Shown: positions 26,172-33,625 of the stretch, in pieces
Layout of the letters: each line of letters starts with the position of its first letter
How positions within the stretch are numbered: position 1 is the first letter of the stretch
Origin: Candidatus Bathyarchaeota archaeon
Lineage (GTDB): Archaea > Thermoproteota > Bathyarchaeia > Bathyarchaeales > Bathycorpusculaceae
Direction of reading: 5' to 3'
Length of the DNA: 64,000 nt
NCBI GenBank assembly: GCA_026414485.1
Contig: JAOAIX010000003.1
Span: 1 to 64,000, forward strand
Notes under the pieces: generated by a model
Seen by the model: the letters and a program-made list of their open reading frames with translations, nothing else
Told to the model about the DNA's origin: nothing
The model's database searches: none
Made by a program: the position numbers and the translations under genes

Positions 26172-27374
26172 ATGCAGAATTGTCCAGCTATAGTTGCCGT
26201 CGGCAGAACCAAATTTGGAGAACACTACGGCAAAGAACCCGAAAAGTTAATTGAAGAGGCATGGCTTGGCGCCTCTCGTGAATGTGGAATAGAACGAAAA
26301 GACCTGCAAGCATGTTACATCTCAGACTATTTTCTCCCAATCACCAATAAACTTGGTCTAGAAGAAGGCTTCCTCTCAGAACTTACAGAACTCCATGTAC
26401 CAATGGAAGTCACTCGCTCCTTCAGTGCAGCTCTCAAAACGGCATGTCACGCCATACAAGCAGGCATTTACGACACAGTACTTGTCGGCGGTATCGAAAA
26501 AATGACTGACCGATGGGACAAAATCCGCGATGACTTAATGCTTCTTGAAGATCCATGGAGCTACTATGCAGGAGGCACTCCCGAAGTTAATCACGAACTT
26601 ATGCTACGGGCGTACATCAAAAAATATGGGATAAAAGGAGAAAACCTCGAGAAACTTAACGTAGCTCTTGCCCAGATTGCCGTAAAGAACCATGTTAACG
26701 CCACTAAAAACCCAAACGCACAGTATCAGAGAAGCATCACAGTGGAACAGGTGATTAAAGCCCGCAAAAGTAGCCGTAAATCTCTAGGGCTCTTTGATTT
26801 TGCACCCATATCAGACGGCGCCTCTGCGCTTATTCTCACCAGTTCAAAGAAAGCAAAAAAAACAGTTAATAATCCAATCTACGTTTTGAGCATCACTTCT
26901 GCAACAGACTACTTGGATTACCCGGCACGAGAAGACCTAACTCATTTTACGGCAACCAAACTCGCTATGAAAAAAGCCCTGCAGACTTCTATGGTGAACC
27001 CTGCAGGACTACAATTGCTAGAACTCTATGACCAATCCACCGTCATGGAGATGATCTCTCTTGAAGATTTGGGTTTGTGCCAAGAAGGAACTGCTTGGAA
27101 GCACATTTACGAAAGTTGCCAGAACTTACAAGGCTATTACGAGATTAACGGCAAGAAAATTTTCACAAACACGAACGGCGGCTTAAAAGCCGATGGCAAC
27201 CCTCTTGGAGCTACAGGCGGCGCCCAAATTTTTGAAGTGGTAAAACAACTCCAAGGCAACGCAGGTGAGCGCCAACTCCCTTCTGACATCCAACCACAGT
27301 ATGGTTGCTCTCTTGAAATCGAAGGGTTTGGCACCAAAAGCTATGTCAGCATACTAGGGAGAAATCATTCATGA
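26172..27374 (+). CDS. Thiolase-family protein lacking catalytic residues
   Basis: 400 residues with a thiolase fold, aligning along its length with archaeal acetyl-CoA acetyltransferases of the mevalonate pathway (for example DTVLVGGIEKMTD, GLFDFAPISDGASALIL). The active site is not conserved. The usual nucleophile context (AC-ASGG) reads VTRSFSAAL, putting Thr81 where Cys is expected. The usual HD-F motif reads ELYDQS, with Tyr for His. The GHP motif reads ADGNPLGATG, with Asn343 for His. It overlaps the next gene by ATGA, so it is made together with the DUF35-HMG-CoA synthase fusion. It may be a structural or channelling subunit, or have changed chemistry. A condensing thiolase elsewhere would be needed. 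Confidence 0.85.
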   Translation: MQNCPAIVAVGRTKFGEHYGKEPEKLIEEAWLGASRECGIERKDLQACYISDYFLPITNKLGLEEGFLSELTELHVPMEVTRSFSAALKTACHAIQAGIYDTVLVGGIEKMTDRWDKIRDDLMLLEDPWSYYAGGTPEVNHELMLRAYIKKYGIKGENLEKLNVALAQIAVKNHVNATKNPNAQYQRSITVEQVIKARKSSRKSLGLFDFAPISDGASALILTSSKKAKKTVNNPIYVLSITSATDYLDYPAREDLTHFTATKLAMKKALQTSMVNPAGLQLLELYDQSTVMEMISLEDLGLCQEGTAWKHIYESCQNLQGYYEINGKKIFTNTNGGLKADGNPLGATGGAQIFEVVKQLQGNAGERQLPSDIQPQYGCSLEIEGFGTKSYVSILGRNHS

Positions 27375-28879
27375 GTAGTGAACCAATCGAACGCAGAGTC
27401 TCCTACTTAGGAGACAGACTGAAAATCAGTCGATGCACCATATGTGGAAAAGAATACTTTGAAGTAAGAGATTACTGTAGCAACTGCGGCAGAAAAAGCT
27501 ATGAAAAAATGGCTCTTGCTGACCTCTTCTTTGACAAAGGCACACTAGAACTTTGCACGCTTGTAAATGAACCCACCAATAAATTCACAAAACTGGAAAG
27601 CTACGTTTATGGCGTCATCTCTTTCCACAATGGCAAAATCCGAGTACCAGGCAGACTCACAGACCAAATCATAAAAGACGACAAACCCTTGGATCTGACA
27701 AGCTTAGAAGGGAAAGAGGTTGTGCCTAGATTCCGTAGACGTTATATGGTAAATAAAAGCGACGTAATTCCAACTATTTCTCTGGCGTTTACTTTTGCAG
27801 ATGAATATTATCCTCATCAAGAGTACAAAGTAATTCACCCCACTAAAGAATACAAGTTGCCGGGAATCGTGGGTTACGGAGTTTATTCTTCAAGTTTTCG
27901 AATACAAGAGGGTGGAATTGAACGTGCGGTGCCCTACATCGACGAAGATTCAATGACCGCTGCTGTTGAATCAGGAAAGCTTGCGTTAATTCACGCCGGC
28001 GTGGACAGCGCTTGTGTGGGCAAAGTCTACGTGGGTTCAGAATCTAATCCTTACGCGGTTAAACCCATAGCCTCTAAAGTGGCGCAAGTTCTCAAACTCG
28101 GGAAAGAAGACGAAGATACGCAAAGCGTCGACGCTGTAGATACTGAGTTTGCATGCAAAGCAGCTACAAGCATGTTCAAAGACGCGGCGGCACTCGTGAA
28201 TTATCCAAACACAGACGTCGAATACACTATGGTTATAGGTTCAGACAACAGTCAAGCTGCACCAAGAGGATGCCCAGGTGGCGAGTTAGATCTGTTTGTC
28301 GGTTACGGTGGAGCCGCGTTTCTTTTTGGCAAAAAAGATGTTATAGCGGAAATTGAAGGATGGTACTCCTGCACTTCAGACACGCCTGATTTCTGGCGCC
28401 GTGACGGTGAACCTTTTCCTATGCATGGAGGCAGGTTCACAGGAGACCCAGCATATTTCAAACATGTCCGTAAAGCCGCGGTCAAACTCATGGATAAACT
28501 TCATTTGAAGCCAAGTGACATTAACTATTTTGTTCCGCATCAACCTAATCCTGCGTTTCCCACTAAAGTTGCCAAAGACATAGGTTTCAAAGAAGAACAG
28601 TACAAAAGTGCCCTTATTGTTAACAAATTCGGTAACACTTACTCTGGCTGTTCACCTATGGGTTTAGCTGCTGTACTTGACGTAGCCAAACCTGAGGAAC
28701 TCATACTTGTTGTCAGTTATGGTTCTGGTGCAGGAAGCGACTCCTATGTACTCAGAACTACAAGTCAACTTCTTGAAAAACGGGAACGTCAAAAAATGAC
28801 GGTGCGATATCAAGCAGAAAACCCACATATAAAGTACGTGGACTACACGACATACCGCCGTCTAAAATTAGGGATGTAA
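27371..28879 (+). CDS. DUF35-HMG-CoA synthase fusion protein
   Basis: 502 residues. Residues 1-162 form the DUF35 module: a rubredoxin-like zinc ribbon (CTICG, CSNCG) and an OB-fold that binds acyl-CoA. Residues from about 164 are a complete archaeal HMG-CoA synthase, with DEDSMTAAVES (general-base Glu), EFACKAATS (nucleophile Cys), PHQPNPAFP (catalytic His) and SYGSGAGSDSY. It condenses acetyl-CoA and acetoacetyl-CoA for the mevalonate route to archaeal lipids. In many archaea DUF35 is a separate gene whose product bridges thiolase and synthase in a channelling complex; here it is fused at the N-terminus. ATGA overlap with the thiolase-like gene. Confidence 0.93.
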   Translation: MSSEPIERRVSYLGDRLKISRCTICGKEYFEVRDYCSNCGRKSYEKMALADLFFDKGTLELCTLVNEPTNKFTKLESYVYGVISFHNGKIRVPGRLTDQIIKDDKPLDLTSLEGKEVVPRFRRRYMVNKSDVIPTISLAFTFADEYYPHQEYKVIHPTKEYKLPGIVGYGVYSSSFRIQEGGIERAVPYIDEDSMTAAVESGKLALIHAGVDSACVGKVYVGSESNPYAVKPIASKVAQVLKLGKEDEDTQSVDAVDTEFACKAATSMFKDAAALVNYPNTDVEYTMVIGSDNSQAAPRGCPGGELDLFVGYGGAAFLFGKKDVIAEIEGWYSCTSDTPDFWRRDGEPFPMHGGRFTGDPAYFKHVRKAAVKLMDKLHLKPSDINYFVPHQPNPAFPTKVAKDIGFKEEQYKSALIVNKFGNTYSGCSPMGLAAVLDVAKPEELILVVSYGSGAGSDSYVLRTTSQLLEKRERQKMTVRYQAENPHIKYVDYTTYRRLKLGM

Positions 28880-28952: not shown

Positions 28953-30212
28953 TTGTTTGCTACAGACATAATTAAGATGGTTTATTCTCCACGCAGCACT
29001 TTCAAAAAAATAATTGAGAACCCAAAATATTGGGGAGCTCTTTTAGTTCTACTCTTGTTTGTAGGTTTGCAAGTAGCCTTTGATTATGCACAACAGTCAA
29101 AAACCTATTTTGAACAGACCGCCCCAAATGTAGGTTTAATCTATAATTGGAATTCAAACACAACTCTCTGGAGTGCCAACTCAGGAGTTACTGTGAGTAA
29201 CAATTATGAGGATTTTATCAACCAAACTATCTATGTAGGTCCCCCATACTACGTTTATTACAGTGTTTTTGGCAACAGTAGCCTCCAGTTCGACGCAGCA
29301 AACAGCAATTTAGTATCCGTTACCTTAGAAACCTCAAACGTGGATTGCGGACCAACAGGGTTCCAAAATTTAACGTTATTAATCAAAATTGTCCAGCCTC
29401 AAAGCAACCCACAAAAGTTAACCTTGACCCTCTTCACATTAAATAATTCTGACAGCTATTTCCAGCAGGACTTAACTTCTGCTTTTTTGGGCACAAGCGG
29501 CATATGGAATAACTTAACCATCCCCGTAGGCACTAACACACAAATGTGGCAAAGCATCGGCAACCCCAGTTGGAGCAATATAACGAGGGTAAAATTAGAT
29601 TTTGAATTCTCCACAAACACCAGCGTAACCATAAATGTTGGGGGACTGTTTTTCCGAAGCAAGTATATAACTTCGCCTCAGATTGACGGCGGCACAGTCA
29701 TCTTGAATGCTGCCTACACTTACGGCACGCAGTTCATCTTTGAATGGATTATCTTGACCGCCATTGTTTACATACTTATCAAATTGTTTAAAGGCAGCTT
29801 GATTTGGAAACCCCTCTTTATAGCTATTGGCTCTGCCTTAGCAGTTCTCTTAATTCGTTCTCTGATTTTCCTTGCAGCCACACCGCTCTTGCCAAACGTC
29901 TACTACCCCTACGAACTCGCTTATGGCGTTTCCTACTCACTTTTTGGAACTATGGCTTACCCCGCAACCCAGGTGTCCATTTTGTCGTCACCAAATTTGG
30001 CCGTTTACAACCACATAGTGGAAACGACTTTGGCTTTTCAAGCGATAACCGAGTTCGCTGCAATAGCAATCTACGCGTGGCTAAGCGGTTTAATTATGAT
30101 AATTATAAGTTCAATGTTGCCAGAGTTTTCACTTGTCAAAAGGATGGCAGTTGCAGTTATAGGCATAGTCATCACTATGCTGCTCCTGATTATACTAATC
30201 GGTGTCGTCTAA
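28953..30212 (+). CDS. Yip1-like membrane protein with a large extracytoplasmic insert
   Basis: 419 residues. The start MFATDIIKMVYSPRSTFKKI followed by NPKYWGALLVLLLFVGL is typical of prokaryotic Yip1-family proteins. A roughly 200-residue segment rich in Asn, Ser, Thr and beta strands follows. It has several N-x-S/T sites (NSS, NLT) and probably lies outside the membrane. Four or five further helices complete the protein. Function unknown. TTG at 28953 is chosen because GGAG lies nine bases before it; ATG at 28977 is an alternative. It is a single-gene unit after the isoprenoid operon. Confidence 0.62.
   Translation: MFATDIIKMVYSPRSTFKKIIENPKYWGALLVLLLFVGLQVAFDYAQQSKTYFEQTAPNVGLIYNWNSNTTLWSANSGVTVSNNYEDFINQTIYVGPPYYVYYSVFGNSSLQFDAANSNLVSVTLETSNVDCGPTGFQNLTLLIKIVQPQSNPQKLTLTLFTLNNSDSYFQQDLTSAFLGTSGIWNNLTIPVGTNTQMWQSIGNPSWSNITRVKLDFEFSTNTSVTINVGGLFFRSKYITSPQIDGGTVILNAAYTYGTQFIFEWIILTAIVYILIKLFKGSLIWKPLFIAIGSALAVLLIRSLIFLAATPLLPNVYYPYELAYGVSYSLFGTMAYPATQVSILSSPNLAVYNHIVETTLAFQAITEFAAIAIYAWLSGLIMIIISSMLPEFSLVKRMAVAVIGIVITMLLLIILIGVV

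Positions 30213-30735: not shown

Positions 30736-33625
<2,890 letters not shown>

Follow-up and report, generated by a model that had tools for sequence, protein, structure and literature searches.

HMG-CoA synthase (HMGS) starts membrane-lipid synthesis in archaea. Acetoacetyl-CoA is described as moving between the active sites of the archaeal thiolase/HMGS complex through a shared CoA site, and the catalytic residue of the thiolase superfamily is a nucleophilic Cys. According to PMC6392133, CoA lies in the 6ESQ structure at an interface formed by all three proteins, and the key residues of the Methanothermococcus thermolithotrophicus (M. thermolithotrophicus) HMGS are Cys114 and Glu82. PMC12329534 likewise describes the thiolase and HMGS of the archaeal complex as sharing a CoA site at their interface. 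In PhlABC the HMGS-like PhlA lacks both key residues, Cys and Glu, but function still depends on all three subunits (PMC6392133). Ltp2 and Sal are thiolase-fold aldolases with DUF35 partners and a YDxF or YDCY motif, in which the general acid is either a Cys at the third motif position (Cys304, Sal) or a second Tyr (Tyr344, Ltp2; PMC12329534).

The architecture of the complex is known, and a dead thiolase subunit beside HMGS appears to be unreported: no catalytically dead thiolase subunit of this complex was found in a literature search that had most subscription papers outside its scope, Voegeli et al. 2018 being one that may mention it. The word thiolase is absent from the main text of PMC11052028.

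The thiolase-like gene and its HMGS partner

The window, that is, the whole 64,000-nucleotide stretch of DNA that was analysed, contains two overlapping genes, the first of which is here named pTh.

26172..27374, plus strand: pseudothiolase (pTh), 400 aa (open reading frame, Pfam, AF2 model)
27371..28879, plus strand: DUF35-HMG-CoA synthase fusion, 502 aa (open reading frame, Pfam, PDB sequence and fold matches)

A previous sequence-only reading had described a thiolase homologue overlapping a synthase fusion, and this is confirmed by the reading frames, which overlap by 4 nt with pTh first, and by the Pfam matches of pTh to Thiolase_C_1 (91 bits) and Thiolase_N (40.4 bits). The pTh protein scored below the curated NCBIfam cut-offs of acetyl-CoA acetyltransferase models (229.5 vs 600 bits for NF053570, 221 vs 403 for NF004810), and was under the cut-off for every one of the 25 thiolase families listed of 33. 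Its AF2 model (pLDDT 87.4, pTM 0.90) has 6esq_A as best fold match (Z 52.8, rmsd 2.2, 376 residues aligned, 33% identity), tied with 6et9_C (Z 52.8); by sequence, 7yvy_A and 6esq_A were approximately equal matches. The same reading had considered both fold and spacing to be preserved, which is right for the fold and wrong for the spacing at the nucleophile, where the loop is four residues short.

The second gene carries the following features.

27434..27490, plus strand: DUF35 zinc ribbon with C22, C25, C36 and C39 (zf-ChsH2; Cys conserved among fusions)
28040..28042, plus strand: HMGS catalytic Glu224 (alignments)
28154..28156, plus strand: HMGS catalytic Cys262, in EFACKA (alignments)
28538..28540, plus strand: HMGS catalytic His390, in HQPN (alignments)

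Pfam assigned a DUF35-type zinc ribbon (zf-ChsH2) and ACP_syn_III_C to the fusion. The best PDB sequence match of the DUF35 part was 6esq_E, the DUF35 protein of the archaeal complex (E 1.2e-6), and the HMGS part (predicted model pLDDT 80.7) was best matched by 6esq_I, both by sequence (E 2.5e-77) and by fold (Z 43.7). Against PRK04262, the NCBIfam model for archaeal HMG-CoA synthase, the HMGS part scores above the cut-off (362.8 bits vs 244); against TIGR00748 it stays below (320.1 vs 353.35). The Glu/Cys/His triad is intact in all 45 first-set HMGS of sufficient length (43 fusions and two unfused proteins; L008 was cut) and in 97 of the 98 survey-set HMGS. On our reading of the motifs, Cys114 and Glu82 of the M. 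thermolithotrophicus enzyme would be residues aligned with this triad.

The exception in the survey set, L197 (G181:C21, 1828-4416), is a reciprocal case: there the HMGS-like protein has no triad, and its neighbours are a Cys-bearing thiolase and a DUF35 gene; the same genome also encodes a second HMGS (L196) that shows DUF35 similarity and has kept the whole triad. In further families of the class (L194-L196, L199-L203) the HMGS apparently has a C-terminal DUF35, in frames of 508-560 aa. At L194-L196, L198-L203, L309-L315 and L323, loci from several genomes of the phylum, no thiolase was found beside HMGS; a linked thiolase is therefore not required in every case. Five genomes of the same taxonomic order (L206-L209 from G043, G370, G398 and G408, and also G390) gave no strong match to the HMGS family of the fusion and contain instead a divergent HMGS-like frame of 457-651 aa, which is possibly a replacement.

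Just 3' of HMGS is a 419-aa frame with a TTG start (28953-30212) and no Pfam match at 1e-4, whose hydrophobic stretches suggest a membrane protein. Close to the HMGS operon, on the minus strand (30736-33625), are genes with pyruvate ferredoxin oxidoreductase domains (TPP_enzyme_C, PFO_beta_C; POR, POR_N, PFOR_II).

Catalytic positions of pTh

The positions at which a thiolase would carry its catalytic residues were compared with Cys-containing relatives and with 108 orthologues, which are the 149 pTh loci minus short and identical rows (the locus sets overlap in genomes).

26400..26423, plus strand: nucleophile loop P77-F84 (PMEVTRSF), four residues short, no Cys (alignments, length count)
26583..26594, plus strand: E138 to H141 (E138 and H141 in 108/108 pTh)
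27027..27038, plus strand: YDQS, residues 286-289, replacing HDCF (alignments)
27195..27203, plus strand: GNP, residues 342-344, replacing GHP (N343 in 108/108 pTh)
27315..27332, plus strand: fourth active-site loop E382-G387 (EIEGFG), replacing N-x-G-G (alignments)

In the tree set, the span from P77 to G107 has 31 residues in 26/26 pTh vs 35 in 48/48 Cys-containing thiolases, indicating that the nucleophile was deleted and not substituted. Alignment with L160-L163, the closest intact sisters, shows the missing letters to be A-A-C-A, and the nucleophile column is empty in all 26 pTh. Thr81 had been proposed to stand at the position of the nucleophilic Cys; it just precedes the gap, and position 81 is variable, its six commonest states among the 108 orthologues being T (78), V (9), M (9), A (4), S (4) and C (2). 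An ungapped count back from the common VLxGG puts Thr81 opposite the 6ESQ Cys and is the probable source of that proposal; the loop length count rules out Thr81 as a direct replacement of the nucleophile. Only two of the 108 (L156 and L158) have any Cys between positions 76 and 88, in both cases at position 81, before the gap, and these are otherwise like other pTh, with YDQS and GNP.

The two His replacements noticed from the sequence alone hold in the alignments: Tyr286 takes the place of the HD-F His, and the GHP His is replaced by Asn343, with N in 108/108 pTh vs H in 48/48 Cys-containing relatives. Across 45 orthologues from relatives the motifs read YDQS or NDQS, and GNP; among the 108, position 286 is Y in 88, N in 19 and C in one. 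With both catalytic His gone, it is very improbable that pTh stays active as a thiolase through other residues, such as Cys92 or another Cys or His. Cys92, which the sequence-only reading had itself raised as a possible active-site residue, is Cys in 100/108 orthologues; however, it is Y, I or T in the other eight and lies within helix 84-96 of the AF2 model, and was rejected as a rescuing nucleophile. In addition, 42 of 46 pTh genomes searched have another Cys-bearing thiolase (see below). We consider it probable that pTh is a dead thiolase that has been retained as a structural, CoA-site subunit of HMGS, with acetoacetyl-CoA coming from a separate thiolase.

Seven residues (E138, H141, D287, Q288, S289, N343 and E382) are invariant in 108/108 distinct near-full-length orthologues; Cys-containing thiolases have mostly P/V/S and Y/N/F at the sites of E138 and H141, and Asn (39) or Ser (9) at that of E382 in the 48 compared. 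Judged from the alignments, the fixation of Asn343, Asp287, Gln288 and Ser289 is beyond chance. These seven residues could form the putative rebuilt pocket of a repurposed enzyme or a ligand-binding regulatory subunit, serving another CoA-ester reaction or sensing on behalf of HMGS, a reading which we regard as unlikely. Besides their invariance, six of the seven are found in under 10% of Cys-containing thiolases (D287 is shared with catalytic relatives), and the DUF35-partnered thiolase-fold aldolases have Tyr at the position of Tyr286 (PMC12329534). However, position 286 varies as given above, Gln288 occupies the site of the Sal catalytic Cys304, and other Cys-less lineages show different replacements at the same sites, as expected if only the loss is common to them.

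The suggestion that the subunit might use another chemistry finds little support, the sole plausible base, Tyr286, being Tyr in just 88/108. A Sal-type aldolase with Tyr286 as base was rejected for this reason, and also since Q288, present in 108/108, excludes a Sal-type acid. A conserved putative pocket of E138, H141, Q288, S289, N343 and E382 might instead bind acetyl-CoA, acetoacetyl-CoA or CoA allosterically, with pTh regulating HMGS and with independent conversions in several lineages; this is quite unlikely, and if it were true pTh would regulate archaeal membrane-lipid synthesis.

Conservation, linkage and phylogeny

Among the relatives, 80 loci were kept of 119, with titles of Bathyarchaeota/Bathyarchaeia, Bathycorpusculum, Bathyarchaeum, Crenarchaeota, Nitrososphaerota or uncultured archaeon. 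Of 398 genomes sampled across the phylum, 71 gave a match at E <= 1e-70. Five of these (G066, G089, G096, G111 and G104; families f24 and f33) showed 42-43% identity, and the four of them that were read (L160-L163) contain a thiolase followed by DUF35-HMGS, with Cys, HDCF and GHP intact. The remaining 66 were classed as pTh on identity (at least 53%, with residues read in part only); eight of them lie outside the class, and those eight (L152-L159) were read for residues. The linkage is fixed: HMGS is in the same locus at 145/149 pTh loci, and of the remaining four, three stop at a contig end, while in L074 the HMGS gene begins and then runs into a stretch of N.

Seventy-six positions are invariant across the 108 pTh, and dN/dS was 0.13, 0.04 and 0.07 in three of seven pairs (dS exceeding 1.4 in two of these three and being saturated in the other four). 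These comparisons indicate that pTh is under purifying selection and is not a decaying gene. A pseudogene, an assembly error or a chance frame is hardly credible: all the motifs are lost and a stop was found inside the search stretch of three orthologues (G004, G002 and G005), but this stop is the normal gene end, because the reading frame closes one codon short of where the match stops, and the 108 distinct near-full-length orthologues have open frames. This explanation is refuted by the conservation and by the low dN/dS (0.04-0.13) of the three measurable pairs.

Twenty-one positions are invariant in pTh yet found in under 10% of Cys-containing thiolases, several of them in the old active-site loops. 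They include E138, H141, Q288, S289, N343, E382, F386 and K389, and this is more fixation than passive decay of a pocket predicts, which counts against the retention of pTh as a purely structural and CoA-site subunit. They also include K117, R119, D120, L125 and D127, within the poorly predicted stretch 111-140 (block mean pLDDT 43-60). A region that is fully conserved but poorly predicted in a lone chain is expected of a subunit contact, and the stretch 111-140 may be one.

A maximum-likelihood tree of 98 thiolases was built with the motif columns removed. It included as pTh 18 of the 45 first-set sequences plus the eight from outside the class, and 22 free thiolases that were hand-picked, so that their all being intact is by selection. 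Dropped from the tree were the fragment L168, the intact near-relatives L264 and L286, and the linked Cys-less partials L261, L262, L265, L266, L268, L271, L274 and L287, four genomes of which re-entered as L316-L319. Cys-less free paralogues were found outside the tree (L051 at 2808 and 3991, L215, L246, the minus-strand frames of L238/L242, L345, L347 and L381).

pTh forms one clade (100/100) that groups with the intact sister L160-L163 (100/100). The presence or absence of the Cys requires at least 4 changes on the 98-row tree and 3 on the linked-only tree, suggesting that, depending on the tree, the Cys disappeared from synthase-linked thiolases on two or three further occasions elsewhere in the phylum. 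Change counts and trees cannot separate gain from loss, and loss is the direction taken, given that the superfamily relies on this Cys for catalysis. The 98-row tree shows three further Cys-less groups linked to HMGS (f26/f34; f14/f17/f25/f40/f44; f27/f32/f35/f58), whose nucleophile position is occupied by Asp, Glu, Gly, Gln, Ala or Ser and whose two His sites vary; f32 may correspond to Sulfolobaceae. Outside pTh, a tally of tree rows under non-random sampling gave 11 sampled families with a Cys-less linked thiolase and 20 with a Cys-bearing one. Since the survey loci were the 30 highest-scoring HMGS, 20 chosen for family spread and 20 more, some from known Cys-less families, the dead fraction is no frequency.

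A second thiolase and the comparison with known complexes

The host genome (G000; 1.53 Mb, 92% complete) gave in genome searches a single match to this HMGS family, in a search that picked up far more divergent HMGS in other genomes, and one HMG-CoA reductase. The sequence-only reading had proposed to look for a second, intact thiolase in the same genome, and one other thiolase was found (G000:C5:5661-6833), with EAACASSG, HDCF and GHP. It is followed by a free DUF35 gene, and no HMGS was found near it in the 16 kb examined. With a single HMGS and this C5 thiolase, the DUF35-HMGS fusion is likely the HMGS of the mevalonate pathway, and its acetoacetyl-CoA can come from C5.

In a 75-row tree of linked thiolases, 44 of the 49 rows with a dead subunit had another Cys thiolase and 5 had none, while any other thiolase was present in 1 of the 26 rows with a live subunit and absent in 25 (Fisher p = 6.4e-14, a value that ignores relatedness and should not stand by itself). 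Independent pairs (200 pairings) offered only 3 contrasts, with 1.8 for the association and 0.1 against it, and a median p of 0.5, which is not significant. The association of a dead subunit with a second thiolase is suggestive and not proven, and the pattern is what one would expect if the presence of a second thiolase leaves the linked subunit free to die.

The 42 pTh genomes with another Cys-bearing thiolase include G178, where it is a fragment, and G005, where it has an N-terminal extension with the Cys present. No other Cys thiolase was found in the pTh genomes G042 (97% complete), G024 (85%), G033 (71%) and G257 (76%), of which G024 and G033 lie outside the tree. For the other Cys-less linked rows, 20 of 24 genomes had another Cys thiolase, and none was found in G296 (82% complete), G107 and G176 (both 99%); G288 had fragments only, for which its row (L299) was excluded from the 75-row count. 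G249 was the only one of the 26 live-linked genomes with another thiolase, counted irrespective of residues, and the missing second thiolase in the others is weaker evidence because 10 of the 26 are under 90% complete. Second thiolases were searched with PF00108 and PF22691 in different genomes, and the absence in G257 and G111 comes from PF22691 alone.

Some of these genomes have other particularities. In G107 and G176 (f35; L292, L308, L345, L347) the linked thiolase is Cys-less and the other one is ST0096-like, with Ser at the nucleophile. The pTh-bearing G042 (L048, L377) had no other thiolase in two HMM searches. L051 (1800-5142) and L246 contain paired thiolase-like genes without the Cys motif, together with DUF35 genes and no HMGS seen alongside; one gene of these pairs has GGGTGVF, YDPF and GNP.

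The idea that the subunit may be a scaffold is supported, on comparative grounds, by the HMGS triad, the fixed operon, the conservation of pTh, the other thiolase and the parallel losses. pTh would descend from the thiolase subunit of an archaeal acetoacetyl-CoA thiolase/DUF35/HMG-CoA synthase complex, with catalysis lost. It would complete the quaternary structure of an active DUF35-HMGS fusion and probably also the CoA-binding site that they share. The complex would no longer make acetoacetyl-CoA, which a separate catalytic thiolase (here C5) would supply and HMGS would then condense. We infer that the proteins physically assemble, that the HMGS is active and dependent on pTh, and that acetoacetyl-CoA takes this route. 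If the thiolase contributes part of the HMGS CoA site, its body would be indispensable even where its chemistry is redundant.

A thiolase body kept without its chemistry, in this operon and apparently in further lineages of the phylum, sets what the thiolase does as a structure apart from what it does as a catalyst, and opens to experiment the question of why thiolase and HMGS are bound together. If this retention of a dead subunit is right, HMGS-linked genes of this kind named acetyl-CoA acetyltransferase are misnamed, and the source of acetoacetyl-CoA is a different gene; searches of a few nearly complete genomes did not find it.

Among known systems, ST0096 from Sulfolobus tokodaii (4YZO) is an archaeal thiolase fold in which, on our reading of the alignment, Ser stands at the expected nucleophile Cys; unlike pTh, it keeps HD and GHP. 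Ltp2 (6OK1), Sal (9MYR) and the trypanosome SLP (5AB6) have the thiolase fold with Tyr for the His of HDCF, as in pTh. In contrast to Ltp2 and Sal, pTh has YDQS, a Tyr that is not invariant and an HMGS partner, and the fold matches of Ltp2, Sal and SLP are weaker than that of 6esq_A (Z 43.6, 43.5 and 46.5 vs 52.8). The M. thermolithotrophicus complex (6ESQ/6ET9; Voegeli et al. 2018) is like the operon of the window in its three modules, linked genes and HMGS triad. It differs in that pTh is without the nucleophile and the catalytic His and has an altered fourth loop, and in that DUF35 here forms the N-terminal part of a fusion with HMGS, with the order thiolase then DUF35-HMGS; channelling of acetoacetyl-CoA made by the complex is not expected with pTh. 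The PhlABC Friedel-Crafts acylase (5M3K; PMC6392133) has the same three modules and one silent condensing subunit. It would be the mirror image of the present operon: in PhlABC the HMGS-like subunit is silent and the thiolase-like one works, whereas here the thiolase is silent and the HMGS triad is kept.
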